Source of the DNA: Polytrichum commune
Taxonomy: Eukaryota; Streptophyta; Polytrichopsida; Polytrichales; Polytrichaceae
Length of the DNA: 64,000 nt
NCBI GenBank assembly: GCA_950295325.1
Contig: OX485806.1
Span: 40,484,001-40,548,000, forward strand
Direction: 5' to 3'
Under the pieces are notes generated by a model. The model ran no database searches, had not been told where the DNA came from, and was given only the letters and a program-made list of their open reading frames with translations. Shown here one piece after another: positions 1 to 31,640 of this stretch. A program made the position numbers and the translations under genes. Numbering within the stretch: the first letter of the stretch is position 1; the number at the start of each line of letters is the position of its first letter.

Positions 1-123
1 AGGCAAGGAGAACTTAACTCCAAGTGAATCATCCATAGGCAAACAGGTGAAGTACGGATGCATTGAGGCGGCAGTGCTGGAGGCCGGCCAAGACATGATC
101 CCGAAACACTCTCAGTAGCGTAC
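1..123 (+). other. 5' leader of element T
   Basis: Untranslated stretch directly before the gag ATG at 124. No primer-binding site or LTR edge is recognisable, so both must lie further left. A short ORF-free leader is normal between the primer site and gag. Confidence 0.5.
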
Positions 124-2076
124 ATGGTTGACCATGAGGATACATCTAGCACAAGAAGCACATCACCAACCCCAAGGGAACGAGAAGCCGAACGGAGGCA
201 TGTGGAGCGCATGCATTTCGGAGATAATTCCGTGAGACGGAACGAACAGCAGAAGAGAGAAAGAGAAGAGAGGTACGCGAGGCGTACGCGTCAAAGAACC
301 ACAAGAGAAGAAGAAAACAGAAATGCTTCTGAGCCACCGGCAGTAGGTTCCCACACCACCAAACCCATCCACCAAAGAAGTCAGAGTGAAGGAGGAGATA
401 ACGACAGGACATACAAAGAAGATAAATACAGAAATGAATACAACTCACTTCACGGAGGAAGTGAGGACGAAGATGACTCGATAATAGGAACCCCTCTTGG
501 GACCTATGTTTTGAGAACGAAAGGAACCAGCGAAAACACCGGCACACATAACCCGGTAAGTGGGGCGCAGGATAAGGGTAAAACCCCTCAAGGTAACACG
601 ACCAAGGAAGACCTTTTCACCCAAAGGAATTGGGAGGAATTGAAGAGGAATTTTGAGAACCAATTTAGTTACGAAGACTGCGGCTTTTCTGGAGGAAGCA
701 CGCAAAACAACACAGACCAAGAAGTGAAGAAACCTATCAGTCAAGAGGAAGTTGACGAATTGAGGAGAAAATTTGAGGAGAGACTCAAGCAATTCCAAAA
801 CCTTGGAAATAACCCCGGAGTCAGCCCACCACTAGCCAACAACAACAACGTACCAAGTTTTAGAAACAACCCATCTAACCCGGCCAACATGGCCGCTCAA
901 CCACGAAGAACGAAGGTTCCTTTACCGACCTATAAAGGTAAGACTGATCCTGATACGTACATGCAAGAATTTAACAATGTTTGTCTTGCCAACCAGGAAG
1001 ACACCGACGCAATCAAGCTACAATTATTTCCAGTTACTTTGAAGAAGCGAGCACTAGAATGGTATTCTCAATTCGGCCCACATCATTTTCCGGATTGGCC
1101 CTCCTTGGGAGCTGCCTTTCTTATGAGATTTAGATCCAAGAAATCGGAGGGAGAAGTGATTGAGAGTCTAGGATCCCTGAAGCAGAAGAAAGATGAAACA
1201 GTTGAAGAATTTTACGAAAGGGTTATGGTGGAATCATCGAAGATAAATCCCCAACCCAGCAATCAATTCAAGAAGGCATGGTTTCTTAATGGCCTTAAGA
1301 AGGAGTATGCCAAACACATTGATCTCATGCCGACCGATGATTTAGACGAAGCCAAGGCCTCAGCTCGGAAATTGGAGCTAGGTCAAATGAGGAAAGGAAG
1401 ATTCCTCGATGAGAGTGACAGCGACGACTCGAGCGATGACTCGGAAGAAGAACACAAGAAAAAGAAGAGGAAGTCAAAGGGTAAGAGAAACGACTCTACC
1501 AAAGATGACATAAAGACCCTCAGGGAAGAGATTGAAGGACTGGCTCTAGGGAGCAGGAAATTTCGAACAGGCATCATCTGCCGGAGATGCCGAAATGAAG
1601 GACACTACGTGCAGGAGTGTCAGATGAAGCAGTGCACCAACTGCAACAGCCTAACGCATAACACAAGTGAATGTGTCTATGAACGGCACGAATCTCGGAG
1701 ACCCCGAGATAGGAGATATGGGGTAAATCAAGTGCAACCCCAAACTAATCGAAGGCCAGGAGCGATAACTCCTAGGCGGGAAATGAATGAAAAGAGAGTT
1801 CGGTTTGAACCAAGAATGGAATATAGAAGAGAAGAGAGATCCCCTTATAGGGAAGGCGATTACCGGCGGGAGGCGGGAGGCCCCTACCGGGGAAATGAAA
1901 TCGCAGAGATGATCGGCCTTATTACAGGCCCAATGATAGCTACAAGGATGATTTCAGAAGGGAAGGTTATTTCCCTTACAAAACCCAAGATTTCCGGAGG
2001 GAAGATGGATACCCCTACCGAGGAGGCCCCAGAGGACCTATCAACCATGACAGGTATGAATATACCAGAAGCCTGA
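124..2076 (+). CDS. gag: Gag of element T (capsid and nucleocapsid), frameshifted near its C-terminus
   Basis: Structural protein that would form the cytoplasmic virus-like particle and package the element RNA. The first ~260 residues are charged and low in complexity, rich in Arg and Glu. A Retrotrans_gag-type capsid domain runs from about residue 264 to 419 and includes ALEWYSQF near 310. An acidic then Lys-rich tract follows (429-456). Two CX2CX4HX4C zinc knuckles begin at residues 486 and 504, followed by an Arg/Tyr-rich tail. After about residue 592 (nt 1899) the Arg/Tyr-rich composition stops in this frame and continues in the frame of pol, so the last ~58 residues here are frameshift product. 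The start is an ATG with an open N-terminus. Pol follows 146 bases later in another frame. Confidence 0.85.
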   Translation: MVDHEDTSSTRSTSPTPREREAERRHVERMHFGDNSVRRNEQQKREREERYARRTRQRTTREEENRNASEPPAVGSHTTKPIHQRSQSEGGDNDRTYKEDKYRNEYNSLHGGSEDEDDSIIGTPLGTYVLRTKGTSENTGTHNPVSGAQDKGKTPQGNTTKEDLFTQRNWEELKRNFENQFSYEDCGFSGGSTQNNTDQEVKKPISQEEVDELRRKFEERLKQFQNLGNNPGVSPPLANNNNVPSFRNNPSNPANMAAQPRRTKVPLPTYKGKTDPDTYMQEFNNVCLANQEDTDAIKLQLFPVTLKKRALEWYSQFGPHHFPDWPSLGAAFLMRFRSKKSEGEVIESLGSLKQKKDETVEEFYERVMVESSKINPQPSNQFKKAWFLNGLKKEYAKHIDLMPTDDLDEAKASARKLELGQMRKGRFLDESDSDDSSDDSEEEHKKKKRKSKGKRNDSTKDDIKTLREEIEGLALGSRKFRTGIICRRCRNEGHYVQECQMKQCTNCNSLTHNTSECVYERHESRRPRDRRYGVNQVQPQTNRRPGAITPRREMNEKRVRFEPRMEYRREERSPYREGDYRREAGGPYRGNEIAEMIGLITGPMIATRMISEGKVISLTKPKISGGKMDTPTEEAPEDLSTMTGMNIPEA

Positions 2077-2219
2077 TGGATAATAACAACACCAAGGCAG
2101 CGCCGAGAACTGGGTTCACTGGCGGACCACAGCGAGATGGCAACCCCGACGAGTGTTTTTATTGTCATCAGAAGGGGCACCGGAAGCCGGATTGTCCGCA
2201 CTTTATTAAACACCAATAG
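1899..2219 (+). pseudogene. Displaced Gag C-terminus with third zinc knuckle
   Basis: In the frame of pol, the DNA from about 1899 keeps the Arg/Tyr/Pro-rich composition of the Gag tail and then encodes a third CX2CX4HX4C knuckle (first Cys codon 2154, last 2193). It ends at a TAG at 2217-2219. The smallest explanation is a 1- or 2-base indel between about 1899 and 1910 that split a once continuous gag. This places the original gag stop six bases before the annotated start of pol and in the same frame. Confidence 0.75.
2217..2219 (+). other. In-frame UAG between Gag and Pol (possible readthrough site)
   Basis: The TAG sits in the context CAA-TAG-GAG. It is the only stop in this frame between about 1899 and 8595. 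Gag and Pol are therefore in one frame separated by a single amber codon, the arrangement used by elements that make Gag-Pol by stop-codon readthrough. Downstream, AAACCGGCAG (about 2245-2254) and CTGCGGTTT (about 2275-2283) could pair imperfectly as a stem-loop. Readthrough is inference; a simple point mutation from a sense codon would look the same. Confidence 0.45.
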
Positions 2220-2222
2220 GAG

Positions 2223-5200
2223 TTGAGTGGATTTAGAAACACGAAACCGGCAGTAGGAGCCAATGTGGTGTCCCCTGCGGTTTGTGTAATGACAAGAGCC
2301 CAACGGGCTGCAGCCGAGGAAGGCAAGGAAGATAGTGAGAGTGACGACAGTGATGATGAGGATGATGAATCGAGCAGTGGCAGCTCGGAGGAGCAAGAAG
2401 ACCACCAAAAGAGAGAGGAGAACTCTGAAGATGAAAGGGATGACGCGTTCGAGGATAACGGACGCAACGAAGTGATTGAAGAACGGCCGATAGGGGCCAA
2501 CAGTGAAGAATGGAAAGCGGATAGGGAAGTCCACCGGGAGGTGAGCAAGACCATCCAGGAGATACAGGAGGAAGAGGGCGAAGCTCTACCCACGCCAGAG
2601 GAGTTCGCACCTTGGTACCCAGAAAAGGAAGAGGCAGAGAAGCCCACAGAACGGAGCCCCGAGAAAGGAGGCGTCCCAGTAACTACCCAGGCACGGGTAG
2701 ATAAGATCTTGGAAAGTGTGATGAATCACACGAAAGCAAACATATCAGTCGGACAATTACTTGAGATAGCCCCTTATTGCAAGAAGCGAATAATGGCGGC
2801 GTTGGCACATGAAGAGAAGTCGAAGGAACCGACTCAAACATATCAAGTTACGGCGAAGGCATTTGATGAAGAGATGCCCATGATATCCGTAATTGTAAAG
2901 AACAGGCAGGTACCGAATGCCTTAATTGATGGTGGATCAGGAGTGAACATCATCACGGACACGTTAAGGAAGCAATTAGGACTCAAGAAAATAGAGCCCG
3001 CACCATTTACCATAAAAATGGCTGACCAAAGAAAAGTCATGCCCAAAGGAATTATCCGGGACGTACGCCTTGATGTTGGCGGGATTATAATCCAGACAAC
3101 ACTCACTGTTATAGACATGGTGAATACTGAAGACAGTTACTCTCTATTATTGGGAAGACCTTGGTTGAAGGAGGCACAAGCTCAACATGACTGGCCCCTT
3201 AACAAACTGACCTTGACCCAAGGAGGGAACAAGGTGGAAGTAAGTACCCGGAGAACACCAGCCCTATCACCTGCAAAGAGACCTTTGCATTGGGAGGATT
3301 ACGACTGGGAGATGGGACTATCGGATGAAGAAGAAGCCATAGTTTATGAGGCCTTCCCCGAACTACTCCCCATGGGAGATTTCGACTTGAAAAGCTTGAG
3401 GAAGCTACAAGAGCCAAGTTGCAATACAATGGAGATTGATACTATCGGAACACCTACACCACAGGGAGGTAAATCCGAGAAACCTCGGTCAAGGAAAGCG
3501 ACCAAGAAAGAACAAGAGGCTATGGAGGAAAAGCCTGTATACCCCTCCCAGTTTTACAAAGCAAAAGAAGGAGACATAATAGTAGACCGTACCCCTGCTT
3601 CAGAAGCTGTCAAGGGGAAAAAGATAGCCGGATGGACGGTTGAGGATGAAGACTTGGTCAAAAACTTGAACTTAGGTACTCCGGAGGATCCTAAGTTGGT
3701 CAAGATAGCCAAGGATTTAGGTGACTATGAAGCACAAGTAAAAGAATTGCTATTGAAATTTAAGGACGTGTTCGCCTTTACATACAAAGACATGAAGGGA
3801 ATACCTCCATATATATGCGAGCATAAGATCGAGTTGCAGCCTGAGGCCAAGCCTGTAAGGCAAATGCGCTATAGAATGAATCCCAATTACGCCGCCAAGG
3901 TCAAAGAAGAAATCGACAAATACTTGGAGGCAGGATTCATATACCCCGTTGACAAAACGGAATGGTTATCACCAATTGTGATTGTGCCCAAGAAGAATGG
4001 GAAATTACGAGTATGCGTCGACTACCGCAAACTCAACGCAGTCACCAAGGTAGACCCTTTTCCTCTACCTTTTACAGAATCAATCTTGGAAGCGGTTGCA
4101 GGACACGAAATGTACACGTTGATGGACGGGTATAGCGGGTACAACCAAATCATGATCGCGCTAGAAGACCAGCTGAAGACCTCTTTCATCACCGAGTATG
4201 GAGCATTCGCATACCGAGTGATGCCCTTCGGATTGATGTGTGCACCAGCCACATTCCAAAGGGGTATGATGAAAATCTTTGCCGATTATCTCGACAAATT
4301 TATGAAGGTTTTTCTGGATGACTTTACCGTATATGGGACCAAGGGAGACCATATTGAGCACTTGGAGAAGTGTCTCGTCAAATGCCGTGAAAATGGGGTC
4401 AGCCTGAACCCGGAGAAATGTTATTTCTGCGTAAACTCCGGGAGACTCCTTGGACATGTGGTATGCCAGGAAGGATTGCTGGTGGACCCTAAAAAGGTGG
4501 GAGTCATCAAAGAGCTACCCCCACCAACCACAGTACGGGGAATCCGGAGCTTCCTAGGCCAAGCCACTTATCACCGTAAGTTTATATGGATGTATGCGGA
4601 TATCACTCGGCCCTTGTACTTATTGCTTAAGAAAGGAGAAAAGTACATTTGGACCAAGTCTTGTCAGGAGGCCTTTGAAGAGGTAAAGAAAAGACTTACG
4701 ACTACACCCATTCTCATAACTCCCAATTGGACAATGGACTTCCACGTGCACTGTGATGCGTCCAACATAGCTATTGGAGCCGCTTTGGCCCAGAACATAC
4801 ATGGAGATAGAGATTCTCCAATTCATTATGCAAGCCGACTTTTGAACAGTGCTGAGAAGAACTACAGCACAACGGAGCGCGAAGCTCTGGCAATGATTTA
4901 TTCGGTGGGCAAATTTAGGCACTACCTACTAGCCAACCATTTTGTCTTCTACGTGGACCATCAAGCGTTGATATACTTGGTCAATAGACCAGTAGTATCC
5001 GGGCGTATTGCAAGATGGATGCTTTTGCTTCAAGAATATGACTTTGAAGTGGTATACAAGCCCGGAAGAAGTCATGTCATGGCTGACCACTTATCCAGAA
5101 TTGAAAGCGGAGAGGAACCCTCAGGGGTGCAAGATCAGTTCCCGGATGCAAGTTTGTTCATGGTACGTGTGCAGCCTTTTCAAGACTGGCGAGCACCTTT

Positions 5201-8200
5201 TATTGAGTATCTTACACACGGAAAACTATTGTCCGTACTCACTACCCCGGAAGCACAGAAGAGAATTCGACAGCTTAGTGAACCATTCATGTTGGAGGAA
5301 GGAAAGCTCGTGCGAATTAGTATCTCCGGCAAAATACATGAATGCATAGCCGGGGACATCATCGAAGAAATTATAAGTGAAGCTCATGAACAAGACGGAG
5401 TGCACTACACTCTGTCTACGACGTGGCAATATGTATTACGCGCACCTTATTGGTGGCCTACACGGCGAAGAGACGTAGTGGGATACTGTAATGAATGCCC
5501 AGTATGCAAAATGTCAGACCAAGCTGACTTAATTGGGGAACCCACCCCACATGACTCCGAAGACGACGACGACCCACTTCCCATCAAACCTTTGGAGGCA
5601 CAAGAAGACATGGATGGGAAAGCGGAACCGGATTGGACAACACCTTACGTCCAATATCTAACCTGTCAAACCTACGGGACCCCGTGGGTGAGTTCCCTAC
5701 CCCTGGAAGAAAGGAAACTGCTTGTTTACCGCAGTCGATTCTTCATACTCAAAGAAGGGGAACTACATCGCATGTTTCACAACAGCATCATAAAGAAATG
5801 TATACCGGGAAGATATGTGAGGAGTTACATCAAGACCCTCCATGTAAATGAAAACCGGCATTTCTCGATAAATGCCACCAGGCAACTGGTACTGCAAGGC
5901 CCTTATTGGTGGCCAACCATAGCGGAGGATGTTTCACTACTCATCACGCTGTGCACTGGATGCAAAGGGCAGGGAGAAGAATTGCCAACAGAAGCAAGCT
6001 CTTCCCAACCTAGTCCGGAGACGGAAATAATACCCTACAAAGAAACCTTCAATGATTGGAGAACACCCCTGGTTGAATACAAGACACGGGGAATATTCAA
6101 AATGGACATGGAGACTCAAAGAAGGCAACAAGAGCTTATACGAGAGAGTGAGTTCTTCACAGTGGAGAAAGGGAAACTCCGGAAGTTAGAAAAGAATGGA
6201 CGGGCAAAGATATGCATTGCGGACTATCAAATAAAGCATTATATAGCACGAATGCATGTCTATCGAAATGTGCACATCAACGATCAATACACTTGGCTCC
6301 GATGTTTGAACGGGAACCGGTGGTGGCCCACGATGGGGCTAAGTGATGTACAATTATACATTGAGTATGATTGCCGAGCCTGTCGAGAGCGATTTATAGG
6401 CCCATACCATAACATAATATGTGGGTCCATTGTGGCACAGCCCCAGAAAACCAAGGATTGGAGGAAATTATTGATTGAGTACCTCACCTACGGGTACCTT
6501 AAGGGGCCCCACATTTTGAAAGGACAACAGAAGAGGATTGCCCGCCAGAGCCGGGAATACTTTATTGAAGAAGGCAAATTGAAAAGAATACTATCAAACG
6601 GGGAAGTCAAGATATGCATTGCCGGTCATGAGGTAAACAAATACCTACAAGAATTACATATCACGGACACAGGAGAGCATCTTAGCATGGAGACCACATG
6701 GCACTTGTCCATGTTTGGGCCATATTGGTGGCCCACGTGCGGGTCCGACATCAAGAACTTATGCAACGGGAAATGCCCAGTATGCAGCTACCAAGTCGGG
6801 CTTGCAACAGAAAAGGAAACACAAACACTTCTAGGTGAGAAGAGCCTAGATTGGAGACGTCCATATTTGGAGTACCTAACATGCGGAAAAATCTTCGACC
6901 AAGCCTTACCACAAGAGGTAAGAAAAGCGGTGGAGCAAAGCCATAAGCATTTCGTGTTCACCAACGGTACTTTGCAACGGATACGCAGAGGAGGAAGGAG
7001 TAACCAGATGTGTATACCAGAGAGTCAAGTACCCGCGTACTTAGCTAAGATTCATGGGCAAAGCATGCCCCATTTGGCAGCCATAGAAACCTGGAAGGCC
7101 GTAGCCACCGGGGCATATTGGTGGCCAACGTGGGGACAGGACGTGTGCAACTACCTAAAACATTGCGAAAGTTGTACAGGAACAGAGACCCTAGAAAACC
7201 ACACTGAAGGGAGTCAAAGCGCGACGCTCCCAGAAACAACATCCAAGCAGGATTGGAGGCGCTCAGTTATACAACGACTGGAGAGTTTTGAAGATTGGAA
7301 CTTTGTTGACACCCCGGAGGATACGGGATTACTTGACCCGAATGCTGAAATGTATTTCAAAACCAAGGACGGGTTGAAATATCAATTACCTGGTGGAGAG
7401 GTGAAAATGTGTATCACAAAAGGAGACGCCATCGATTGGGTAAGACGGGTCCATGAAAATCAAATACCACACTTGTCTGCAGAAGAAACAATTGCTCAAG
7501 TGCACGAAGGCCCGTATTGGTGGCCGACTATCTCTCCAGACGTGAAACATTTGATTGACGAATGTCGGATATGTCCACTTGGGACAACGTTAAGCTCCCA
7601 AATTGGGAAGTATGGAGCCATCCCGTTTAGAAGAGGTAAGGCACAGGATTGGCGAGAACCAATCATACAACACCTCAAGCAACCGATGGAATTAAGCGAA
7701 CTGGTATTCCAAGAAGAGTTAGGGATATTGAAGGAAGAAATATCCGATTATTTCTTGGAAGAAGATATATTGAGCCGAAGGTTAAATGGAGACATCAAAT
7801 TGTGTATCTCCCAAGATGAGGGGATCGAATGGCTAACAAACATACATAAACAGAGATCCCCACATCTCTCAATGGATGAGATGATCTCGCGGGTCGCTTC
7901 AGGACCTTACTGGTGGCCCACAATACCGCCAGACATCGATCATCTCTGTAAGAACTGTGTGCAGTGTCAGCCTCGAGAAACCCCAAAACATGTGATCGAC
8001 TGCCAAACGGTCACAAGCAAAGACAAGGAGGAACTTGATTGGAGAGCTCCTTTCATTGACTATTTGAAGCATGGTCGATTGACCACGGAGGCATCGACCA
8101 CCCAACGACAACAAATAGCAATACGCAGTAGGCCGTATTGGTTAACCCACGATGGGACCTTGATCAAAGAAGGCCCTGATGGCTTACGGAGAATATGTGT

Positions 8201-8597
8201 GAACGGGCCAATAACTACTGCCATTATTGCGGAGGCTCATGAGGGAATTGCCGGAGGGCATTTCTCAGCCAACATTACCCTACACAAGGTAGTGACTGCC
8301 TTGTATTGGTGGCCCACCATGAAAAGAGATGTTTATTTATATTGCACCCAATGCGATATTTGTCAAAGAGTTGGCCCCAAGACTTCAACCAATCTCCAAC
8401 CCTTACATCCCACAATGCCTACTGAGGTCTTTCAGAAATGGGGTTTGGATTTCATTGGACCAGTCAACCCGCCAGCTAAAGGTACCAATAATCGGTACAT
8501 TATTACAGCAACTGACTACACCACCAAGTGGGTGGAAGCAAGAGCCCTAAAAGACAACACGGCTAAATCAACAGCCAAATCCTCTTTGAGGAAATAA
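2223..8597 (+). CDS. pol: Pol polyprotein of element T with eight tandem integrase zinc modules
   Basis: Copies the RNA genome and integrates the cDNA. An acidic leader (residues 1-150) precedes an aspartic protease (ALIDGGSG, catalytic Asp236). Reverse transcriptase spans about 544-760 with FLDDF at 697-701. RNase H spans about 837-965 with HCDAS (Asp845). Eight successive HHCC modules fill residues 988-2047, and the integrase core then begins (WGLDFIGP, first catalytic Asp2076). A usual gypsy Pol has one HHCC module; the seven extra ones add about 950 residues. The frame stays open over 2124 codons. The TTG at 2223 is only the first possible codon after the TAG at 2217, so Pol is probably made as Gag-Pol. 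The ORF ends early because of an indel near 8577-8580; the rest of integrase continues from 8579 in another frame. Confidence 0.92.
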   Translation: MSGFRNTKPAVGANVVSPAVCVMTRAQRAAAEEGKEDSESDDSDDEDDESSSGSSEEQEDHQKREENSEDERDDAFEDNGRNEVIEERPIGANSEEWKADREVHREVSKTIQEIQEEEGEALPTPEEFAPWYPEKEEAEKPTERSPEKGGVPVTTQARVDKILESVMNHTKANISVGQLLEIAPYCKKRIMAALAHEEKSKEPTQTYQVTAKAFDEEMPMISVIVKNRQVPNALIDGGSGVNIITDTLRKQLGLKKIEPAPFTIKMADQRKVMPKGIIRDVRLDVGGIIIQTTLTVIDMVNTEDSYSLLLGRPWLKEAQAQHDWPLNKLTLTQGGNKVEVSTRRTPALSPAKRPLHWEDYDWEMGLSDEEEAIVYEAFPELLPMGDFDLKSLRKLQEPSCNTMEIDTIGTPTPQGGKSEKPRSRKATKKEQEAMEEKPVYPSQFYKAKEGDIIVDRTPASEAVKGKKIAGWTVEDEDLVKNLNLGTPEDPKLVKIAKDLGDYEAQVKELLLKFKDVFAFTYKDMKGIPPYICEHKIELQPEAKPVRQMRYRMNPNYAAKVKEEIDKYLEAGFIYPVDKTEWLSPIVIVPKKNGKLRVCVDYRKLNAVTKVDPFPLPFTESILEAVAGHEMYTLMDGYSGYNQIMIALEDQLKTSFITEYGAFAYRVMPFGLMCAPATFQRGMMKIFADYLDKFMKVFLDDFTVYGTKGDHIEHLEKCLVKCRENGVSLNPEKCYFCVNSGRLLGHVVCQEGLLVDPKKVGVIKELPPPTTVRGIRSFLGQATYHRKFIWMYADITRPLYLLLKKGEKYIWTKSCQEAFEEVKKRLTTTPILITPNWTMDFHVHCDASNIAIGAALAQNIHGDRDSPIHYASRLLNSAEKNYSTTEREALAMIYSVGKFRHYLLANHFVFYVDHQALIYLVNRPVVSGRIARWMLLLQEYDFEVVYKPGRSHVMADHLSRIESGEEPSGVQDQFPDASLFMVRVQPFQDWRAPFIEYLTHGKLLSVLTTPEAQKRIRQLSEPFMLEEGKLVRISISGKIHECIAGDIIEEIISEAHEQDGVHYTLSTTWQYVLRAPYWWPTRRRDVVGYCNECPVCKMSDQADLIGEPTPHDSEDDDDPLPIKPLEAQEDMDGKAEPDWTTPYVQYLTCQTYGTPWVSSLPLEERKLLVYRSRFFILKEGELHRMFHNSIIKKCIPGRYVRSYIKTLHVNENRHFSINATRQLVLQGPYWWPTIAEDVSLLITLCTGCKGQGEELPTEASSSQPSPETEIIPYKETFNDWRTPLVEYKTRGIFKMDMETQRRQQELIRESEFFTVEKGKLRKLEKNGRAKICIADYQIKHYIARMHVYRNVHINDQYTWLRCLNGNRWWPTMGLSDVQLYIEYDCRACRERFIGPYHNIICGSIVAQPQKTKDWRKLLIEYLTYGYLKGPHILKGQQKRIARQSREYFIEEGKLKRILSNGEVKICIAGHEVNKYLQELHITDTGEHLSMETTWHLSMFGPYWWPTCGSDIKNLCNGKCPVCSYQVGLATEKETQTLLGEKSLDWRRPYLEYLTCGKIFDQALPQEVRKAVEQSHKHFVFTNGTLQRIRRGGRSNQMCIPESQVPAYLAKIHGQSMPHLAAIETWKAVATGAYWWPTWGQDVCNYLKHCESCTGTETLENHTEGSQSATLPETTSKQDWRRSVIQRLESFEDWNFVDTPEDTGLLDPNAEMYFKTKDGLKYQLPGGEVKMCITKGDAIDWVRRVHENQIPHLSAEETIAQVHEGPYWWPTISPDVKHLIDECRICPLGTTLSSQIGKYGAIPFRRGKAQDWREPIIQHLKQPMELSELVFQEELGILKEEISDYFLEEDILSRRLNGDIKLCISQDEGIEWLTNIHKQRSPHLSMDEMISRVASGPYWWPTIPPDIDHLCKNCVQCQPRETPKHVIDCQTVTSKDKEELDWRAPFIDYLKHGRLTTEASTTQRQQIAIRSRPYWLTHDGTLIKEGPDGLRRICVNGPITTAIIAEAHEGIAGGHFSANITLHKVVTALYWWPTMKRDVYLYCTQCDICQRVGPKTSTNLQPLHPTMPTEVFQKWGLDFIGPVNPPAKGTNNRYIITATDYTTKWVEARALKDNTAKSTAKSSLRK
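5184..8363 (+). repeat. Eight tandem HHCC zinc-binding modules inside pol
   Basis: Each module begins with Asp-Trp (DWR in seven, DWT in the second), has a HX5H or HX6H pair, then YWWPT (RWWPT in the third) and a closing CX2C. The DW codons lie at nt 5184, 5631, 6054, 6456, 6849, 7251, 7647 and 8037, that is residues 988, 1137, 1278, 1412, 1543, 1677, 1809 and 1939. Spacings are 149, 141, 134, 131, 134, 132 and 130 residues. The CX2C ends read CPVC, CTGC, CRAC, CPVC, CESC, CRIC, CVQC and CDIC. All eight keep all four predicted zinc ligands although the rest has diverged strongly. The eighth (HEGIAGGH...CDICQ) is closest to the canonical module and adjoins the integrase core. Confidence 0.93.
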
Positions 8598-9880
8598 TCA
8601 CAAAATTCGGATGCCCATTGGAGTTTGTAAGCGATCAAGGAAGTCATTTTATTAACGACACCATCAAAGTGCTCACTCAAGAATTTATGATTTTACATCG
8701 AAAGTCAACAACCTATTACCCACAAGCTAACGGGCAAGCTGAGAGCACCAACAAAGTGATCAAGATCGCCCTAACCAAAATGGTCAACGCCAACCGAACA
8801 GATTGGGACACCAAGTTGCATGCAGCACTTTGGGCATATAGGACAGCCTATAAGGTGACAACAAAGCACACCCCATTCTCTTTAGTATTTGGGACAGAAG
8901 CTTTGTTACCTATGGCCTACCTACATCCTGACGTTCACCAACAAAGGAGCCAGGATATACATCCCATTCTTAAGAAAAGGATGGAGCAACTCCAAATCAT
9001 CGATTTAACTCGACATGAAGCAGAAAGAAACATGAGGCACATGCAATTATTGCGCAAAGATAGGCATGACCGACCTCGGAAACGGACACATTGTAAGCAG
9101 TGTCACCACGGAACAAGTAAAATTTCCCAGAAGAAAGCCAAACGGCATGATACTTTGGAGGAAGGAATTATGCAAGACACGAAGAAATCCAAGCACTCCC
9201 CAAGGAGTGAAGAGGCCGAGCTACCGGCCGTAACCAAAACACGATTTCACCCCGGCCAAAGAATCTTGTGGCACTTACGCCATAAAATACCCGGACCGGG
9301 CAAGTTCAAAATACGTTGGGCAGGACCATATCTAGTTGAACAAGTCTATGATAACGGATCAGTGGACGTTACCACCCTGCAAGGAGAAAGTTTAGGCCGC
9401 GTTAACATGAACAAACTCAAACCATATCAAGAGCCGGAGACTACCCAAGCTTATGCCTTACAAATATTAGCATGTCATATTTTAGAAGCTGAGATTAAAA
9501 ATAAACAAAACCATTCACCCAAAAGGGATAGCATAACCCAATTCCCCACTACCCCATCTAAGGAAAAGATCACCCCACACACCGGATCTACCAAATATCC
9601 GGATCAGGCAACCTTAGATGCAGAGGACTTAGAGGTCCATCGAGTCATGTTAGAAGTTTATTGGACACAACCTACACCACTGGAGGGCAACAACCCCCAA
9701 CCCATGTGTCATGATCTAACCAACCCCTTAAAGGGAAATAATACCCCCATAAACCACCTAGGAGACATCCTTAGGAAATCCAAACTTATCACGGTAGAAA
9801 CCCCTAAGAAGGATGCTAACCCCACTTACCCTACCCCACTAGGCTTAAGGGCGGGTAGGACGGATCATTTTCCCAAGTAA
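8579..9880 (+). CDS. Integrase core (second half), C-terminal domain and tail of element T Pol
   Basis: Continuation of Pol after a one-base-type frameshift near 8577-8580. The core resumes with the second catalytic Asp in VSDQGSHF (nt 8633) and the catalytic Glu in QAESTNK (nt 8741), spaced D-X35-E as in retroviral-type integrases. A GPY/F-type C-terminal domain follows (WAGPYLV, about nt 9329), and then a ~140-residue hydrophilic tail without a chromodomain. No ATG fits the beginning; a start at 8618 would be TTG, so this is not an independent gene. It stops at TAA 9878-9880. With the break, no single protein from this copy carries all three catalytic acids. Confidence 0.88.
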   Translation: MLFEEIITKFGCPLEFVSDQGSHFINDTIKVLTQEFMILHRKSTTYYPQANGQAESTNKVIKIALTKMVNANRTDWDTKLHAALWAYRTAYKVTTKHTPFSLVFGTEALLPMAYLHPDVHQQRSQDIHPILKKRMEQLQIIDLTRHEAERNMRHMQLLRKDRHDRPRKRTHCKQCHHGTSKISQKKAKRHDTLEEGIMQDTKKSKHSPRSEEAELPAVTKTRFHPGQRILWHLRHKIPGPGKFKIRWAGPYLVEQVYDNGSVDVTTLQGESLGRVNMNKLKPYQEPETTQAYALQILACHILEAEIKNKQNHSPKRDSITQFPTTPSKEKITPHTGSTKYPDQATLDAEDLEVHRVMLEVYWTQPTPLEGNNPQPMCHDLTNPLKGNNTPINHLGDILRKSKLITVETPKKDANPTYPTPLGLRAGRTDHFPK

Positions 9881-11668
9881 CCAATATGGAATTACGGACT
9901 AGGTAAAGGCTCACCTAGGACCGCCCACTGGTCAAGTAAACCAGTAAGAGCGTTTTCACCTAAATAGGTACGGGAAGTAGTGATAGAAAAACTTACAATT
10001 TAAAAGGGGAATTAAAACATGAATAGATTTAGAACAAGGGAATGATCCAAACATTAGAAGATGGTCAAAAGGATAATGAGATTTTACTCTACTTTTGATT
10101 TTAGGTCATCATAGGAAGATGTCACTAGATTACATGAAGTTAACCCATGCATGTTTCAAATAATGCCTTTTAGGAATTTAGACATTGGAAAGAGGGATAG
10201 CAAACTTACAGGCCAACATACGTAACCATCAAAGCCAGCCAATGGAGGAAATACGAGTAAAAACGATGAAAGAAGAGAATTTTCATATTTTTTAACAAGC
10301 AGGCACGGAAGGTTATTGGAGTTATGTTAGATGCAGCGGCAGTTAATGCACTGACTACTGGGATTTCAATTAGTCAATTATGAAAAGAGATTATTCCATT
10401 TATATCAGGAGAGCAACCGAGCACGAAGGATTATGGAATTTTTACATGATGCAACAGGGTTGAGAAATTGGGGAAGATTTTGGAGATTCGAGTAAAAAAA
10501 ATCACGTCAGGAGGAAAATATCGACTTCGGGAGAAAATCAACGATGAAGGACTAGTGGCTGAGAGCAGCCATGTACGAAATACGTTTAACTTATTGGATG
10601 CCAAAATAAACAAAGGATGGCAAACACTGCAGCTGGATGAGAAGCTAGCTGGCTAGAAATTTCCTTACTTTTGCAACAGGTACCTAAAGGTTGGATGTAG
10701 CAGTGGATGAAGGATTGTCACGAGCAGACATGGATGAAATGACAGCTGAGAGGCGTTTCAGCTAAATGAAGCTTCAATTGGATGAAGTTTTTGAAATAAA
10801 ACACCGGGAGTTTTACAGAGCTTATACCAGCCGTTAATAGTTTCAAAGCAACCGAAAGAGGGAAAGTGGAAGTATAAAGCAGCCTGCGAAGGATTCCCAT
10901 GTACCACAGTAAAACAAAACTCTGTCACAAGTATTGGATGGATGAAGCATTAAACTAAAACGACATTACAGTTTCGTGAAATTCAACTGGAGAAATTAAA
11001 ATCGGAATTAGACTTTGCGGTGCATACCAAATAAACAAATGAAACAGGGTTTGGCAAACACATCAGGCAACCTACGGCGGAAGAGAATTCGAATACGTTA
11101 GTCTTATTAGCCACACCAGCTCATTCACAAGAAACATTCAACTTTGACAAAAATCTGATCTGAGCATGCCAAAAACTCTGTCAACCTTATGTAAGGAAAC
11201 TGTTACAAAAGAGTAACTCCAATTTGTTTTTATTGGAGGGGTCCAACAAGTGGACCCCAAGAAAATTTGGGGATTCAACCCACCGAAGTGGGGAATCCCA
11301 CAGAAGTAACCAGTAAACCCTGTGCCAACCCACTTGCACATGGTTAGTAAGAACTTCTGGAAATAACTTCAGAAGAAAGGGAAAAGGAAACGTAAGAGCT
11401 TACCGTGCAAATTCAAATTATCTGGGCCCCACCAGCTGTGCGCGGTGACCAGTCGGGACAGGGTGTCCAACTGACCCTTCTTCTCCAACCGCCACAAACA
11501 AGAATGCCTAACCACCTTGTGTCAGCTGAACTCTTCAGCAGCCAAGAGAAACAACCCAGCTTATCTCGCAGCGTTTGAACCCGACAATCAATAGTTGTAA
11601 CACCAACAAATTGGGAGGAAGTTGCACGGGATTCAGTTGAAGGTTAAGGAGCTGCAGCAAAGTAAACC
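9881..11668 (+). other. Untranslated spacer between pol and the third ORF of element T
   Basis: About 1.8 kb with no ORF above ~70 codons that resembles a protein, no recognisable repeat and no LTR edge. Athila/Tat elements commonly have a long region between pol and the 3' LTR. If the downstream ORF is expressed from a spliced RNA, its acceptor site would be expected here; I cannot identify one with confidence. Confidence 0.5.
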
Positions 11669-14647
11669 ATGGAGTGTCCGAATGTTTATCAACCTAAACT
11701 GGATGCGAACGGCAGATTCTGGAAGGGGGTGCAGCTCACATGCCTTCAAGCATTCTCTCAAGTCCATTGGCACTCGGGTAAGTCACAATGGTACTCCCCG
11801 ACTTGCAAGCTCCATACATTTCAGGCAGTTCTTAGGGAGGCATTATCCAGAGAAGAAGGAATTCTTGAGCTCACAGACACCATGAAGAGAGGACCAGAAG
11901 ACAGACAAGATGTCTTGTATGCATTCAGTATTGATCCAGCTCTCAAATACCAGTTAACCCCAGGAGAGAGAGAATTCCTGAAGAAACTCAACCTTGAGGA
12001 TTTCCTTACCTCAAACTCTTGGGGAGTATTGCACTCTCCATTAGTCACTGAGGCAATCGCAGCATTGGAGCCGGACACCTTCTGGACTACTGTGAAAGGG
12101 GAAAAGGTCAGGCTCATTGCCGAGGATTGGAGGGAGCAGTTCAAACATACATTCCAATTAACTAAGAAGGAAGCACAACCAGTGACAAGGCAATGGAAAG
12201 TCACAGAACTGTTTCCCACATTGAAAGAGAATCCGGAAAAGGACACGGTGCACATATCAGATTGCCAGCACCCTGGTGCGAGGAGACCTTTGAGGCTGTT
12301 AAGCTCAATCTTCTGTCTCAATCCAACACACCAAAATTCCATAACCCTGGCCTTTGTGGAAATGGTTGTCGCGGCACTAAATGGCCAAGGAGCAGATTGG
12401 CCGCAAGAGTTCTATCACGAGATCACAGAAGAACTCACAACATTACACAACAAGCACCTGGCTACTAGGGTAAAGGTGGAGAAAACTTCTGTAGGGCCTC
12501 ATTTAACTCTGATCCTCAAGGCAGGAGGTGTGCTCAACATCAGGGAAGAATTGGAGGCTGGGTACAGGAGTGAAAGAGCTCTCACCTTGGAGGAGCAACG
12601 ACCTGTCCCAAAGAAGCCCAAGACTGTGGATGCCAAGGAGTCACCAGAAACACAAACCGTGATTCGACAGCGACCAGCTCGGCAGAAAGAAGCTACCACA
12701 AAAAGAGAACCAAGGAAGGCTGCCCAAGTGTACTCGGTCGCAGTGCAACCTGCAGACACCTCATCGAAAGCTCCAGAGAAGAAGGTCATCCTGGAGACAA
12801 CAGAGAGACGCCAACTCCCAAACCCTCTACCTGCCATGGTAGAGCAAATAGGCCAAGCACATCGCAGGTTAGAAAATTTACTTTCTTCTTTTACCAGCAA
12901 GGCCCCACAAGGACTGATAAACCGAATGAATGACGAGTTCTTTAAGATACAAAGGGAGAGCATCCTAAAAGAAAGCTTGGGAAAGGCTACTGATACTGGG
13001 TCAGAAGTGTTACTTAAATCCCAGAAGGTGCAACTTCAGCACTTAGCACAACGGCTGGACAATACAGACAGCCTGAACGATATTAACACCGAGACCATCT
13101 TCCGCCTGGAAGAGGAATTAGCCACATTCAGAACCAAATGGGAGCAGGCTAAGGAGGAAATCGTGTCCTTAAAAGGACAGAAGGACGAAGCCCTCGAACA
13201 GCTAAGCAAGCTCCAAACCACGACTGAAAAACATGCAGAATTAGAGGCAAAACTAACCAATGCAGAGGAATTAATTGACCTGTATGTGGAACACTCCTTT
13301 GAAACCCTGTTAGCAGATCAGGAGGAGGAAGTGGCAGGGTTAAGAGCAGAAATCCACACTGGCACGCATCAGAATCAGCAAAAACTGACCACATTGCGAG
13401 ACCAACTGGAATTCGCCGAGGAAGAAACCCGGGGTTTGAGAGGCCAGAATGCCGAGACCCTGGGGAAATTCACAAAACTCCAGCAGGTGATCGATGACCA
13501 AGCACAACAATTGCAGGGTAAAGACGCCGAAATTAGCCGCTTGAACGACTACATTGCTGAGATGAGAGACATGTTGAAGAGAAGCGATGGATTGGACGAT
13601 CGCAGGAAGAGCGACATCACCAGGCTCGAGTCCAAGGTGGCGGATTACCAGCAGGAGATACAACAGCTCAACAAAGACAAGCACAAATTGATAGCACAGA
13701 TCTCAGCAGGGGAAGGGAAGACACACCTGCTCTCAACCAGAAGTAACCTTGAACACGAGCGCAGTTCGCCTCACCCGATCATGAACAAAGAAAAACATAC
13801 CTTGACTGTTGGAGTGGCCAATAAGCTCCTGAATGAACTAAGAAAGGATCTGGCTCGCACCCAGCAGGAAAATGCAGATCTGGCTCAGCAACTCCTGAAG
13901 CAGCAGGACGAATCCGGGGAAAACACCATTCCCCACGCATCCATACACCCTAGAACAGAGATTGTTCAATGCATTCTCAAGCACACTGAGCCTTTGGACT
14001 CATTAATGCAGTATCACCGTGTGTATGGCGGATTGAACTTGTTGCTCAGCAATATTCCTTTATTGAAAACAGGGTGCAAGCTGGAATTTGCCCAGATGAA
14101 GGAAATATGGAGCCAAGCAAATGTTGCAGCCCGTGATACATTAGTGTTTATGTGGTGCCTAGGAGAAATCAAGACGCCTTTAGGGGTGATTGAAATGCTC
14201 ACAGCTTCTCCCCCTTTCTACGTCAAGAGATACATTTTGCGATGTGTCAAGTTGTGGGCACAACACCGCACTATAACCAGAGTACCCAGAGAATCACTCC
14301 CCATTCTCAAGTCATACTCACATGGCCAGTTTCATCTCATCAGGAGGATGCAACGAGATTACACCAAAGAATTCAATCAAGCCCTATTGACCTTAGCGGC
14401 GGAGGACACTGCAATCTGCTTCGAAGCAGTGCAGCAGCATCGGGCAGTCATCGCCCAACACCCTACCATGCAGCCAAATCTGAGCCAGGTAAAAGACTTC
14501 GTGAATGCTACCCTCGAAGCTCAACAAACGGCGATCTCCCACAGGTATTTCGGAGCTCTCAACAGCGGTACATTGCTGTTTCAGCCACGCTATCACGTCA
14601 GCAACCAGCAAATGAGCCCAAAAAGCATGGGGACATGCTTTCTCTGA
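11669..14647 (+). CDS. Third ORF of element T, 992-residue coiled-coil protein in env position
   Basis: I do not recognise a named family. It starts at an ATG in good context (ACCATGG) and runs open for 992 codons to a TGA that overlaps the polypurine tract. Residues 1-300 look globular (Trp- and Leu-rich, including FWKGVQLTCLQ). About 305-355 is a Lys/Arg/Pro-rich linker. About 470-750 is heptad-like and charged, for example QAKEEIVSLKGQKDEALEQL, and is very probably a coiled coil. About 765-985 is a second helical-looking domain. I see no signal peptide and no long hydrophobic segment, so an envelope glycoprotein is unlikely. Its place between integrase and 3' LTR matches the extra ORF of Athila-type elements. 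The intact frame in an otherwise broken element suggests past selection. Confidence 0.8.
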   Translation: MECPNVYQPKLDANGRFWKGVQLTCLQAFSQVHWHSGKSQWYSPTCKLHTFQAVLREALSREEGILELTDTMKRGPEDRQDVLYAFSIDPALKYQLTPGEREFLKKLNLEDFLTSNSWGVLHSPLVTEAIAALEPDTFWTTVKGEKVRLIAEDWREQFKHTFQLTKKEAQPVTRQWKVTELFPTLKENPEKDTVHISDCQHPGARRPLRLLSSIFCLNPTHQNSITLAFVEMVVAALNGQGADWPQEFYHEITEELTTLHNKHLATRVKVEKTSVGPHLTLILKAGGVLNIREELEAGYRSERALTLEEQRPVPKKPKTVDAKESPETQTVIRQRPARQKEATTKREPRKAAQVYSVAVQPADTSSKAPEKKVILETTERRQLPNPLPAMVEQIGQAHRRLENLLSSFTSKAPQGLINRMNDEFFKIQRESILKESLGKATDTGSEVLLKSQKVQLQHLAQRLDNTDSLNDINTETIFRLEEELATFRTKWEQAKEEIVSLKGQKDEALEQLSKLQTTTEKHAELEAKLTNAEELIDLYVEHSFETLLADQEEEVAGLRAEIHTGTHQNQQKLTTLRDQLEFAEEETRGLRGQNAETLGKFTKLQQVIDDQAQQLQGKDAEISRLNDYIAEMRDMLKRSDGLDDRRKSDITRLESKVADYQQEIQQLNKDKHKLIAQISAGEGKTHLLSTRSNLEHERSSPHPIMNKEKHTLTVGVANKLLNELRKDLARTQQENADLAQQLLKQQDESGENTIPHASIHPRTEIVQCILKHTEPLDSLMQYHRVYGGLNLLLSNIPLLKTGCKLEFAQMKEIWSQANVAARDTLVFMWCLGEIKTPLGVIEMLTASPPFYVKRYILRCVKLWAQHRTITRVPRESLPILKSYSHGQFHLIRRMQRDYTKEFNQALLTLAAEDTAICFEAVQQHRAVIAQHPTMQPNLSQVKDFVNATLEAQQTAISHRYFGALNSGTLLFQPRYHVSNQQMSPKSMGTCFL

Positions 14648-14657
14648 GGGGAGGGGG
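14646..14657 (+). promoter_or_regulatory. Polypurine tract of element T
   Basis: Twelve consecutive purines (GAGGGGAGGGGG) just before the presumed LTR start, where plus-strand DNA synthesis would be primed. It overlaps the stop codon of the third ORF (14645-14647). Confidence 0.8.
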
Positions 14658-14929
14658 TAAATGGTAAGCTCGCCTCCCTCGACAGTAGGGGAAGATCGGC
14701 GATCAAGAAGCACGAGGCGGTGAAGAGAACCCGTGGCCAAGTTCGACACCGAGACCACAATCGGAGGAGGAGTCGGAGCGGAGGGCTGAGAGCCCAAAAA
14801 GGAGACCGTGGGTGAAAAGACAGGAGGACGGCAGAAGAACCATGAGCGATGGGACAAAGGGCCGTCACGGGGAGAGGCCACGTGGCCGAGGGAGAAGGCA
14901 GCGGCTTAAGTACGAGCCGGGAGCGGACT

Positions 14930-15055
14930 GGGAACGCACAAGGGTTCCGGGAACGGGCCGGGAACGCGACTACGGCTCGGGAACATGACGCGTCGGCTTG
15001 GGAACGCGCGACGGTTCCGGGAACGGGCCGGGAACGTGACAGAAGTACCGGGAAC
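14930..15055 (+). repeat. GC-rich duplicated block in U3 of the element T LTR
   Basis: A segment around GGTTCCGGGAACGGGCCGGG occurs at about 14943 and again 69 bases later at about 15012, with further GGGAACG copies around it. It is a tandem duplication in the presumed enhancer part of U3. Confidence 0.7.
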
Positions 15056-15397
15056 AAGCAGGGCTTAGGCCGAATAGCGGATTACTAGTAAATCCAACGG
15101 ACGGTCGGATTAAGGGCCGGGATTAGGGCCAGTTAGATAGGACGGAATACTTAGGAGAATGTAAATAGGACCATTTTGAGAAATGTAAGGACGCGGTCCT
15201 ATTCCCGTTTATAAACACATGTCAATTAGGTAGCTAAAAGATATGAAGAGATATGTAATTAGGATTTACATGTTAGACTATTTAAATTTGAACTCTACGT
15301 ATTAAAGACATTTCAATTCGGCTATTAATAGATACAGAGTTAAAATTAGCCGAACTAACATTTACAAAAATCTTAGAAAAATATAGATTTGTAAGAC

Positions 15398-15405
15398 TAT
15401 ATAAA
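15398..15405 (+). promoter_or_regulatory. TATA box of element T LTR promoter
   Basis: TATATAAA followed by AGAGGCC. The same arrangement (CTATATAAAG, then a GGGGCC-like stretch) occurs on the minus strand in the related solo LTR at 26526-26534. Transcription would be expected to start about 25-35 bases downstream, near 15430. Confidence 0.65.
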
Positions 15406-15479
15406 GAGGCCAACTAGAGGCCCCTAATACACTTCATTCGCTCAAGCAAATTTTACATGAGTGTCAAGAGACCTCAAGC

Positions 15480-15612
15480 GTGCTACCTTTCGATAAATGT
15501 GCTACCTTTCGATTTATATGTGCTACCTTTCGATAAATGTGCTACCTTTCGATAAAAGTGCTACCGTTCGATAATGTGATACCTTTCCATATTGTGTTAC
15601 CATTCTTGCACC
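15480..15612 (+). repeat. Tandem ~19-21-bp array in the element T LTR
   Basis: About seven copies of a unit like GTGCTACCTTTCGATAAA; the later ones are degenerate (GTGATACCTTTCCATATT, GTGTTACCATTC). It lies about 75 bases after the TATA box, so it would be near the 5' end of the transcript. There are no spacers, so it is not a CRISPR array. Confidence 0.85.
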
Positions 15613-17213
15613 GAAAGGATTGACAAATCGGACGATACATTGAAGACTTAGAAAGAAGATAAAATTCCTTCTAACTTAAGGAAAACGACTAAGGTTGGAA
15701 TTTTAAAGGGCTCAAAAACTTTAGGTGAAATACCTAAGGAAGAACTTGTCGCGAGACAACATTTGTAAGAAGCCCAAGAGGGCGATCTTTTGAAGAACAA
15801 TCACAAGATTTTTGTACAAGTAACACTTGAGCTTAAAAAGGATTTTAAGTTGCTATCCGACTACTTGAGCAATTGTTGGACTAAGGTGTGTTATCCATGG
15901 CATTAGGATAGGCACCGCAAGGCATTAGATTTCCACATATGCTCCCGCATGCAATCGGAACACTACCACAACATGCTACCATTCGACGGAAGAGAATTAA
16001 GGAATTCCGAGCAACTTGAGAGAGTAAAGTTTTTGAAAAAGAATTAAAAACTTATGTGAGCCCGAAGTACGAATTGAGTTGAGAATCCGATAAGGACTTA
16101 GGAATTACATGTGAGATTTACCTAAGGGGATTTACTTAAAACGGACTACGAATGAATTAGGTTTTGGGATTCTCATGAAAGCTAACTTAATGGCTAGAAG
16201 TGGATGTACCACATACTTGAGTATAAAGTGGGAATTGAATTATGTGCCTCCACGTTTGGCAACCCCTCGGATTTGATTTACTGGAATTACATCACCGCCA
16301 CCACATGAGGGTATGATTACTACCAATTGAGGGTCCGCCAAGTGGGCATATCAAAACATCCTCTCTCATCATACCTATCAAATCGATCCAAGGTGATAGA
16401 GGAGAAATGAGTAGGGAATTAAAGAGATAAATGAGAGGCTTAATTAAGCTCTATCTTTGAGGGATATCTTCGGGAATTTGATAGATCTTATCCGTCCCTT
16501 TTGAGAATAAGGCTACCAAGGGAGAGAGTGTACGAAGAATGTTTTCATGTCCGTGGGTTTAATACAAAGCCGGGAAATATAATTTAGTGAGGGAATATGC
16601 TTGCAAACATTTTCTTCATTGATACTTGGTTTGCGAACGACTCGCTAATCATTCAAACCATGAAGGAGTTGGAGTGAATCTACAAGATATTAGACTTAAG
16701 GAATGATTTCCCTTCACAACACTTAACCTTGACATTAGAGATGTAGGGGACATTATCTTAAGATCTAAGGTACCTATCCATTTAAGAGATTATTTAAAAG
16801 GAACTACATACTGAGAAAGATTGTAAAAGTAGTTCTCGTTGAAAGTACTTTAAGGGAACATAAACTTGATACCTCGGACACTATATCCCCAAGGACTTAT
16901 GAAAGGGTCTCAATCGCCACATTCTAGATCAAAAGAAGTATTGTATACTAAATCTATATAAAGGTTTAGGAACACCAAACCTTGACATTACATTCACGGT
17001 AACATAATCTTGGAATCTTATACCAACTACTCTTAGAAAGTTTATAAGGACATTGGAGCTACATGTTACCAAATTGAGACACAGAGGAATGCAAACACCT
17101 TCACGAGACTTAGAGAAAAGGAGTTCTAATTTTGGTGGGAGTAACTTCCATGTAAACCGGTTCAGCAGCGGGTTACACCGTCTTAGGCTGGAAGGTTGAA
17201 GGTGCCCTCCACA

Positions 17214-22981: not shown

Positions 22982-23921
22982 CAGGGTTGTCTATTGTGTC
23001 GTGACGGAGGGTAATCCCGACATAATGTCGTGCCGTCACGACACGTATCCGTCACGACATTATGACGGATGATGTTTTTATCCTGCCGGACTTGAATTTT
23101 ACCAAATTTTTTTGTGTATTTACATTACCCCATTGCGGACACGTAGGAGTTACGATGTCCACGTGTGATGACATGTCAGCAAAGTAGAGGTAAAGTGGGG
23201 AATAAAATTACTAGCGCCCGTCCGCCCTCCTGTCCGCCCCCGTTCCCCGTACCCTAACCCCGCTCCCTTAGCCCATTAACATGTTCCCTAACCCGTTCCC
23301 TATGTTCCCTCCCGTCCGACCCCCCCGTCCGACCTTTTCCCGTCCTCCCTTTTCCCGTCCGACCCTCCCGTCCGACCCTCCCCCCCGTCCGACCCCCCGT
23401 CCTCCCTCCCGTTCCCCCCCGTCCGCTCCCCCCCCCCCCCCGTTCCCACTTACCTTCCTGTCCTCCCTCCCCATCCTCCCTGTCCTCCCCCCGTCCTCCC
23501 CGTCCGACCCATCCCCCCCCCGTCCGACCCTTCCCCCCGCCCGACCCTCACCCCCATCCGACCCCATGTTCCCCCGCGTTCCCACACGTCCGCCTGCGCT
23601 CCCCACCCGTTCCCCCCGTCCGACCCTCTCCCCCGTCCGACCTACACCCTCCTTAGTAATATTTTATTACTTTAATTTTAACAAAATGGTAAACACAATG
23701 GCAAAATGGTTTACATGCCAAGGGAAATATGCACATCCACGTCGGCATTTTTTGCCACGTAGGACGCCACCTTGGCAAGAAGGTAAGTATTTTACCCACC
23801 CTGCTAGGTTGACCCTAGTTTGACCCTACGAGGAGCCTATTGTGTCGTGACGGAGGGTCCAACCCGACACGACGCGTCATGACGGCACGACCCCGTCATG
23901 ACGTCGCGATAGACAACCCTG
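22982..23921. mobile_element. hAT-like MITE (940 bp)
   Basis: Both ends carry the perfect 13-bp inverted repeat CAGGGTTGTCTAT, and an 8-bp direct duplication TTGAAGCT flanks it (22974-22981 and 23922-23929). CAGGG ends with an 8-bp duplication are the signature of hAT/Ac transposons. There is no transposase ORF, so it is non-autonomous. Next to the ends, short inverted motifs of the type TGTCGTGACGG/CCGTCACGACA recur, and a ~60-bp block starting CTATTGTGTCGTGACGGAGG occurs near both ends in direct orientation (about 22991 and 23838). The middle is a pyrimidine-rich tract. Confidence 0.9.
23217..23650 (+). repeat. Pyrimidine-rich minisatellite-like tract inside the MITE
   Basis: About 430 bases of almost pure C and T on the + strand, built from variants of CCGTCCGACCCTCCC and CCGTCCTCCC. 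The complementary strand is correspondingly G-rich, with many runs of three or more G. ORFs crossing it are low-complexity artefacts. Confidence 0.9.
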
Positions 23922-26309: not shown

Positions 26310-26462
26310 AATCCTTTAGTCTTCAAATGCGAGGATAGGTTATATCCTTTAGTCTTCAAATGCGAGGATAGATTATATCCTTTAGTCTTCAACGCGAGGA
26401 TAGGTTATATCCTTTAGTCTTCAAACGCGAGGATAGGTTATATCCTTTAGTCTTCAAGCGCG
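26310..26462 (-). repeat. Tandem ~36-bp array in the solo LTR
   Basis: About four to five copies of a unit containing ATCCTTTAGTCTTCAAATGC and GAGGATAGGTTAT. In the LTR reading direction it begins ~65-70 bases after the TATA box, the same place as the unrelated 19-bp array in the LTR of element T. Confidence 0.88.
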
Positions 26463-30660: not shown

Positions 30661-31012
30661 ATTGAAGCAACTCCAAGGAACTCATGGGGAGGCTAGGAAA
30701 GATGGGCCTCCCCCAAACCATATTTGTGGGATGTTGGTGAGATACAAGGATGTATTCACCAATGTGTTGCTCAAAATGTTATCGCCAAGAAGTGAATTGC
30801 AACTTTGCTCAATAAGAAATTTAGTTCTTGAGGCATGTGGTGACAAAGGAAGTTGGTGGACAAACATGAAGAATTTCAAGGCAATCCAAGAGGAGAATTG
30901 GACCTTGATTCAAAAAAAAAGCTTAGGTCATTGGTTGGCCTAGCCAACTACTACCACCACTTCATTCTAGATTTGTTTTAAGGTTGCTAGGGCCTTACTC
31001 GACTTATTGAGG
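30660..31012 (+). pseudogene. RT remnant of copy D lacking the catalytic core
   Basis: The sequence goes from the protease-RT linker (ILGRYKDV-like) straight to the segment equivalent to [12 protein letters not shown] and then [11 protein letters not shown] of A. The fingers and palm, including YIDD, are missing (roughly 0.5 kb). B and F have the same gap. Confidence 0.8.
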
Positions 31013-31640
31013 AAATGGCTATCCCAAGAGTGGGATGAGCCTTGTCACCAAGCCCTTGAGAAGCTCAAGAGCAAGTTCCCTTCACAAGATGTGGTTAAGT
31101 TTCCGGGTTTTCATAAGCATTTTGAGGTGCACATGGAGGCGAGTGACTTTACCATTGGCGGATGTTGATCCAAGATGGATGACCATTGCTTATGAGAGCA
31201 TTAAGCTCCATGGTTGTCAAACCTTGTCCGGCTTGTGCAAGAAATGGCTATCCCAAGAGTGGGATGAGCCTTGCCACCAAGCCATTGAGGAGCTTAAGAC
31301 GAAGTTTTCTTCGCTGCCCGTGCTCAAGTTCGCGGAGTTTGACATACCTTTTGAGGTGCATACGGGGGCGAGGGACTTTATTTGGCGGATGTTGATGTAA
31401 AAAAAAAAGATGGCCATTGCATATGGGAGCATGAAGCTCGATGGTTGTCCGACCTTGTCCGACTTGTGAAAGAAATGGCTATCCCAAGAGTGGGACTAGC
31501 CTTGTCACCAAGTCTTTGGGGAGCTTAAGAGCAAGTTCTCTTCACCGCCCGTGCTCAAGTTTGTGGAGTTTGACAAACCTTTTGAGGTGCATACGGGGGC
31601 GAGTAACTTTCCCAATGATGGATTGTTAATGTAAGATGGA
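31013..31640 (+). repeat. Tandem ~230-bp RT/RNase H units of copy D (three)
   Basis: The marker AAATGGCTATCCCAAGAGTG occurs at about 31013, 31242 and 31473. Each unit corresponds to the RT connection and the first part of RNase H, present once in A. Every unit has HTG (or HME) where A has the catalytic HTD. Confidence 0.88.

Follow-up and report, generated by a model that had tools for sequence, protein, structure and literature searches.

A Ty3/gypsy retrotransposon in a 64,000-nucleotide stretch of the Polytrichum commune genome (contig OX485806.1, positions 40,484,001 to 40,548,000 of the forward strand; hereafter the window) encodes a Pol protein in which eight homologous copies of the integrase front part, M1 to M8, follow each other in tandem. 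Along the pol open reading frame (ORF; 2223..8597 on the + strand, 2,124 aa), a Pfam scan places in order a protease-like domain, reverse transcriptase (RT), RNase H, seven stretches of Integrase_H2C2 (PF17921; 181 bits and E 3e-54 over the whole ORF) and the start of an integrase core, which is the Ty3/gypsy-type context assumed in a preliminary description of this DNA made from its letters; an NCBIfam scan of the same ORF gave no match. That description had located eight zinc modules at 5184..8363, regularly spaced by 130-149 residues within one open frame and adding about 950 residues, and the coordinates proved exact: M1 starts with residue 988 (nt 5184), residue 2047 (nt 8363) closes the last CxxC, successive modules begin 149, 141, 134, 131, 134, 132 and 130 residues apart, the first and last starts are separated by 951 residues, and the frame of the array contains no stop in 1,073 codons as opposed to 56 and 47 stops in the two other forward frames. 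The count of eight thus stands; the repeated unit, however, is not the zinc module alone but 107-114 residues of integrase front, namely an N-terminal extension domain (NED) followed by the N-terminal domain (NTD) with its two His and two Cys ligands (HHCC). We favor, with a probability of about 0.5, a reading in which a Ty3/gypsy element multiplied this front to eight copies, M1-M7 serving as a multivalent arm and M8 as the partner of the catalytic domain.

Scored one by one against PF17921 (curated cut-off 25.5 bits), seven of the eight modules match and six exceed the cut-off, so that the eight matches anticipated from the sequence were recovered only in part: M4 lies just under the threshold (24.8 bits) and M3 shows no match. 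Profiles built from the other seven modules nevertheless assign every module 94-124 bits, whereas 200 shuffles per module stay at or below 9.1 bits and two other portions of this Pol, protease-RT and RNase H, reach no more than 0.0. Furthermore, an H-H-WWP-CxxC pattern occurs eight times in the array and never in 2,000 shuffles, and a looser HHCC pattern, whose match in M3 and M4 begins with an additional His that precedes the aligned pair, occurs eight times, compared with 0.09 times on average and never more than twice in 2,000 shuffles. Shuffles and leave-one-out profiles together rule out a chance motif. The four ligand columns are invariant, with both His and both Cys present in 8/8 modules. 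A further Cys upstream of the His pair is likewise found in all eight (pol aa 1465 in M4).

The predicted structure of M4 (pLDDT, predicted local distance difference test, 85.8) matches the NED-NTD of prototype foamy virus (PFV) integrase and displays a NED fold ahead of a three-helix NTD, as is characteristic of the PFV and Ty3 enzymes; the homology of the modules to the integrase N-terminal domain is thus borne out by both the PF17921 matches and this model. M5 and M6 were modeled together. Structure prediction within aa 988-2047, as the preliminary description had proposed, shows the fold for M4 and less surely for M5; the same fold for the other modules, as well as zinc binding, we infer. 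M3 alone yielded only chance matches in the PDB (best E 0.22).

Any two modules agree at 23-39% of protein positions and 36-49% of DNA positions. At codon positions 1, 2 and 3, identity across 3,572 codon pairs is 0.45, 0.51 and 0.32, respectively, with about 0.26 expected by chance, so that in this between-module comparison inside one copy the silent positions are near random while the protein sequence has been held. Together with the absence of stops from all 1,073 codons, this points to a lineage in which all eight modules have long been under purifying selection, and copies that look old and carefully kept are probably used. In a tree of the eight modules and one outgroup no branch passes the support marks, the best being M6-M7 at 85/78; one of four chromovirus outgroup copies entered the tree, as the search pattern found no pieces in the three others.

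How such an array could work is suggested by the modules themselves. Net charge is -3 for M1, +3 to +7 for M2 to M5, -8 for M6, -10 for M7 and +2 for M8; linkers of 18-41 residues follow M1-M7; and M8, which adjoins the core, is the module nearest to the H2C2 profile (56.0 bits). Nucleic-acid binding, assembly, targeting and separate release, as listed in the preliminary description, are all possible roles, and it is on the charge differences that we favor a multivalent arm whose basic beads would contact nucleic acid and whose acidic beads would contact protein. An ancient tandem multiplication of the integrase front would have produced the eight copies, with selection preserving the ability of each to fold and bind zinc. 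M8 would serve the catalytic domain as its functional NTD, and M1-M7 would form a flexible beads-on-a-string arm giving multivalent contacts, in which M2-M5 may touch element RNA or complementary DNA (cDNA) ends and M6-M7 protein, such that the arm would keep numerous contacts of integrase with nucleic acid together, both in the particle and in the integration complex. That the arm stays on integrase, and which partners it binds, we likewise infer. The NTD is important for integrase oligomerization and catalysis, and HIV-1 with HHCC mutations shows the class II phenotype, in which RNA binding and particle morphology are impaired (PMC9144474); the Ty3 NED stabilizes contact with the long terminal repeats (LTRs) and reportedly interacts with TFIIIC (PMC8632968); and the PFV NED is described as essential for complexing viral DNA, although with no part in activity in vitro (PMC3738965). 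Outer PFV subunits have a spare NED and NTD that are dispensable in vitro (PMC8050864, PMC6333793), which weighs against any strong role of the modules here.

The main rival to an arm retained on integrase is a separate protease product: the element's own protease would free the array, or M1-M7, as a distinct zinc-array protein of some 950-1,070 residues serving as a particle or nucleocapsid-like scaffold, with the integrase proper beginning at M8. The canonical character of M8 fits this, the linkers could hold cleavage sites and M1 is followed by a long, acidic linker, but the distinctive M7-M8 junction that such processing would lead one to expect is missing, its 23-residue linker being ordinary, and we regard release as possible though rather unlikely. 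Less probable again, and in our view doubtful, is a targeting role in which the modules would contact host chromatin or transcription factors and direct where the element integrates, their divergence reflecting different partners. The low mutual identity (23-39%) and opposite charges, the reported contact of the Ty3 NED with TFIIIC and the lack of a detected chromodomain in the element are all in keeping with targeting; the outer NED-NTD of PFV, however, had no significant effect on nucleosome binding (PMC8050864), and a single copy of the element gives no measurable target preference.

Tandem duplication in Pol can also leave arrays with no role. Much of the remaining window consists of chromovirus-like copies recognized by tblastn, four of which carry tandem arrays of the RNase H start (units of 219-232 bases, 2.0-3.9 copies, 80-84% matches) with stops in every frame of their own strand. 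These copies demonstrate that the genome does produce such duplications and how they appear when they are not retained, and the eight-module array might by analogy be tolerated baggage of reverse-transcription slippage. We consider this quite improbable, since the RNase H units are 80-84% alike and closed in all three frames, whereas divergence marks the integrase array as much older, and it is free of stops and retains all its ligands. Finally, an assembly artefact or recent local recombination or duplication, the objection raised in the preliminary description and one that nothing beyond the restriction to a single copy recommends, is effectively ruled out because the modules are too divergent (23-39% in protein, 36-49% in DNA), and a repeat finder (exact seed 12, length at least 40) reported no repeat within the pol ORF.

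Features of the element and of the chromovirus-like copies in the window. Residues marked pol are numbered along the pol ORF; the end of M8 (aa 2060) was set by choice.
Feature	Nucleotides	Residues	Strand	Remarks
gag ORF	124..2076	650 aa	+	Retrotrans_gag at aa 300-392; weak zinc knuckle at aa 485-499
Protease-like (aspartic)		pol 223-316	+	Pfam, below cut-off
RT		pol 588-746	+	Pfam
RNase H		pol 810-939	+	Pfam
Eight-module array		pol 988-2060	+	Between RNase H and integrase core
M1	5184..5630	pol 988-1136	+	PF17921 37.7 bits; long acidic linker at end
M2	5631..6053	pol 1137-1277	+	PF17921 27.9 bits
M3	6054..6455	pol 1278-1411	+	No Pfam H2C2 match; 96.4 bits from profile of other seven
M4	6456..6848	pol 1412-1542	+	PF17921 24.8 bits, just below cut-off
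M5	6849..7250	pol 1543-1676	+	PF17921 35.6 bits
M6	7251..7646	pol 1677-1808	+	PF17921 27.3 bits
M7	7647..8036	pol 1809-1938	+	PF17921 30.6 bits
M8	8037..8402	pol 1939-2060	+	PF17921 56.0 bits; adjoins catalytic core
Integrase catalytic core start	8403..8597	pol 2067-2123	+	Weak rve match, E 0.15, below cut-off; stop inside core
Remaining integrase, other frame	8618..9880	420 aa	+	Recovered in tblastn by residues 252-393 of the window's chromovirus integrase
Extra ORF	11669..14647	992 aa	+	Central long coiled coil; between pol and polypurine tract
Polypurine tract GAGGGGAGGGGG	14646..14657		+	At end of extra ORF; read from sequence
Presumed 3' LTR start	14658..15605		+	LTR-like promoter
RNase H array, chromovirus-like copy	31012-31679		+	Tandem
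RNase H array, chromovirus-like copy	37178-37802		-	Tandem
RNase H array, chromovirus-like copy	46947-47377		-	Tandem
RNase H array, chromovirus-like copy	57803-58693		-	Tandem
Chromovirus integrase ORF	52531-54216	561 aa	-	Chromodomain (5e-13)
Chromovirus ORF	61467-63989	840 aa	-	gag-protease-RT-RNase H

Outside the array, the element is organized as gag followed by protease, RT, RNase H and integrase, the order of Ty3/gypsy elements, with protease and integrase core below the Pfam cut-offs. The gag and pol ORFs lie in different frames, and 143 bases separate the gag stop from the opening of the pol frame. The pol frame closes within the catalytic core, and the downstream frame holding the rest of the integrase contains the SDQ and QAE core stretches, read by eye, and then the C-terminal part, with no Pfam family attaining its cut-off there; the frame breaks are likelier damage than natural. 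After 9880 follow 1.8 kb devoid of ORFs of at least 150 aa, and in all 4.8 kb lie between this position and the polypurine tract, holding the 992-aa ORF. The latter has a weak match to HAP1_N (below cut-off) and others to SMC/Rad50-type coiled coils (far below cut-offs), and an unassigned N-terminal part of about 440 residues precedes its coiled coil. The presumed 3' LTR carries a TATA box, TATATAAAG, at 15398-15406. Directly after its LTR-like promoter lies a 19-base tandem repeat, GTGCTACCTTTCGATAAAT (5.8 copies, 15480-15591, + strand). The repeat finder reports no repeat pairing both ends in 1-16000, since the 5' end of the element, with its LTR, is not part of the window; if the 3' end has been read correctly, the element is more than 15 kb long.

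A kinship with the Athila/Tat group of plant elements is probable, in view of an apparent likeness of the RT and RNase H to those of Athila. An extra ORF and a long region after pol are indeed present, as in the OTA group (Athila, Tat, Ogre, Retand): a long region with extra ORFs after pol is described for most OTA elements (PMC6317226) and for Retand (PMC11963269). The element further shares with this group the order protease-RT-RNase H-integrase, no detected chromodomain and an extra ORF before the 3' LTR; it differs in that the additional RNase H that marks most Tat elements was not found and in that the integrase front is repeated eight times. Assignment to the Tat clade by an additional RNase H was accordingly rejected, Pfam finding no second RNase H in the scanned ORFs. 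Chromovirus membership was likewise rejected, no Chromo match being found at the integrase C-terminus (8618-9880, E up to 1) in a scan of limited sensitivity that also missed the second core half of the window's other integrase ORF.

Relatives were also sought in viral and in bacterial and archaeal genome contigs. The module region gave no pattern matches in viral contigs and 38 in bacterial and archaeal ones, none of them relatives; RT-RNase H gave two matches and no relatives in viral contigs; and a degenerate DNA pattern for GPYWWPT...D(V/I) gave none in either set. As a control, the window's chromovirus integrase produced four pattern matches and no relatives in viral contigs, and the absences in these searches therefore say little.

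In the four array-bearing chromovirus-like copies, tblastn detects at most a small part of RT, and they look like a non-autonomous family that would be spread by relatives. The chromodomain of the chromovirus integrase ORF has Y, W and F at its three cage positions, as read by eye. Such cages are reported among plants only from non-seed plants, algae included (PMC6317226), but they also typify fungal and animal elements (PMC3350952). Read together with the apparent likeness to Athila, these residues would hint, as no more than a guess, at a non-seed plant host. Elsewhere the window contains a 33-base tandem repeat (26311-26462, 4.6 copies, 95% matches) and C-rich degenerate tandem repeats (23307-23642) with units such as CCCTCCCGTCCGA; no Rfam family reaches its gathering score in the window and no tRNA was found.

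The preliminary description knew of no element with this architecture, and no retroelement with a repeated integrase N-terminal domain appears among the titles and abstract openings listed in literature searches that mostly lacked subscription journals; its novelty is provisional. In PFV and yeast Ty3 integrase the NED-NTD is a single copy, as opposed to eight in tandem here. The closest precedents in that literature involve RNase H, present as an extra or a duplicated domain (PMC10508981, PMC9040795). Hornwort Tat elements with two sequential additional RNase H domains offer a precedent for a duplicated Pol domain near RNase H (PMC10508981), but there it is another domain, in two copies, and not integrase; Odin retrotransposons and dual-RNase H retroviruses enlarged Pol by a further domain of an existing kind (PMC9040795), but by acquiring one RNase H while the old one became a tether. 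Vertebrate ZBTB11 has an integrase-like HHCC module outside an integrase (PMC5384227), in a host transcription factor rather than a Pol protein. Other Pol enlargements met in these sources are a chromodomain and an acquired RNA demethylase domain (PMC9289625).

For a core enzyme, an array of eight constrained integrase N-terminal units would represent a major alteration, and it would offer a natural system for NED and NTD roles beyond catalysis, including RNA binding, assembly and targeting. We tentatively suggest, at somewhat less than even odds, that this lineage has a specialized eight-zinc scaffold, its beads split by charge between nucleic acid and protein, that is required for particle assembly or integration. 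If true, such a scaffold would be a new structural component of retroelements, built by repeating one of their own domains.

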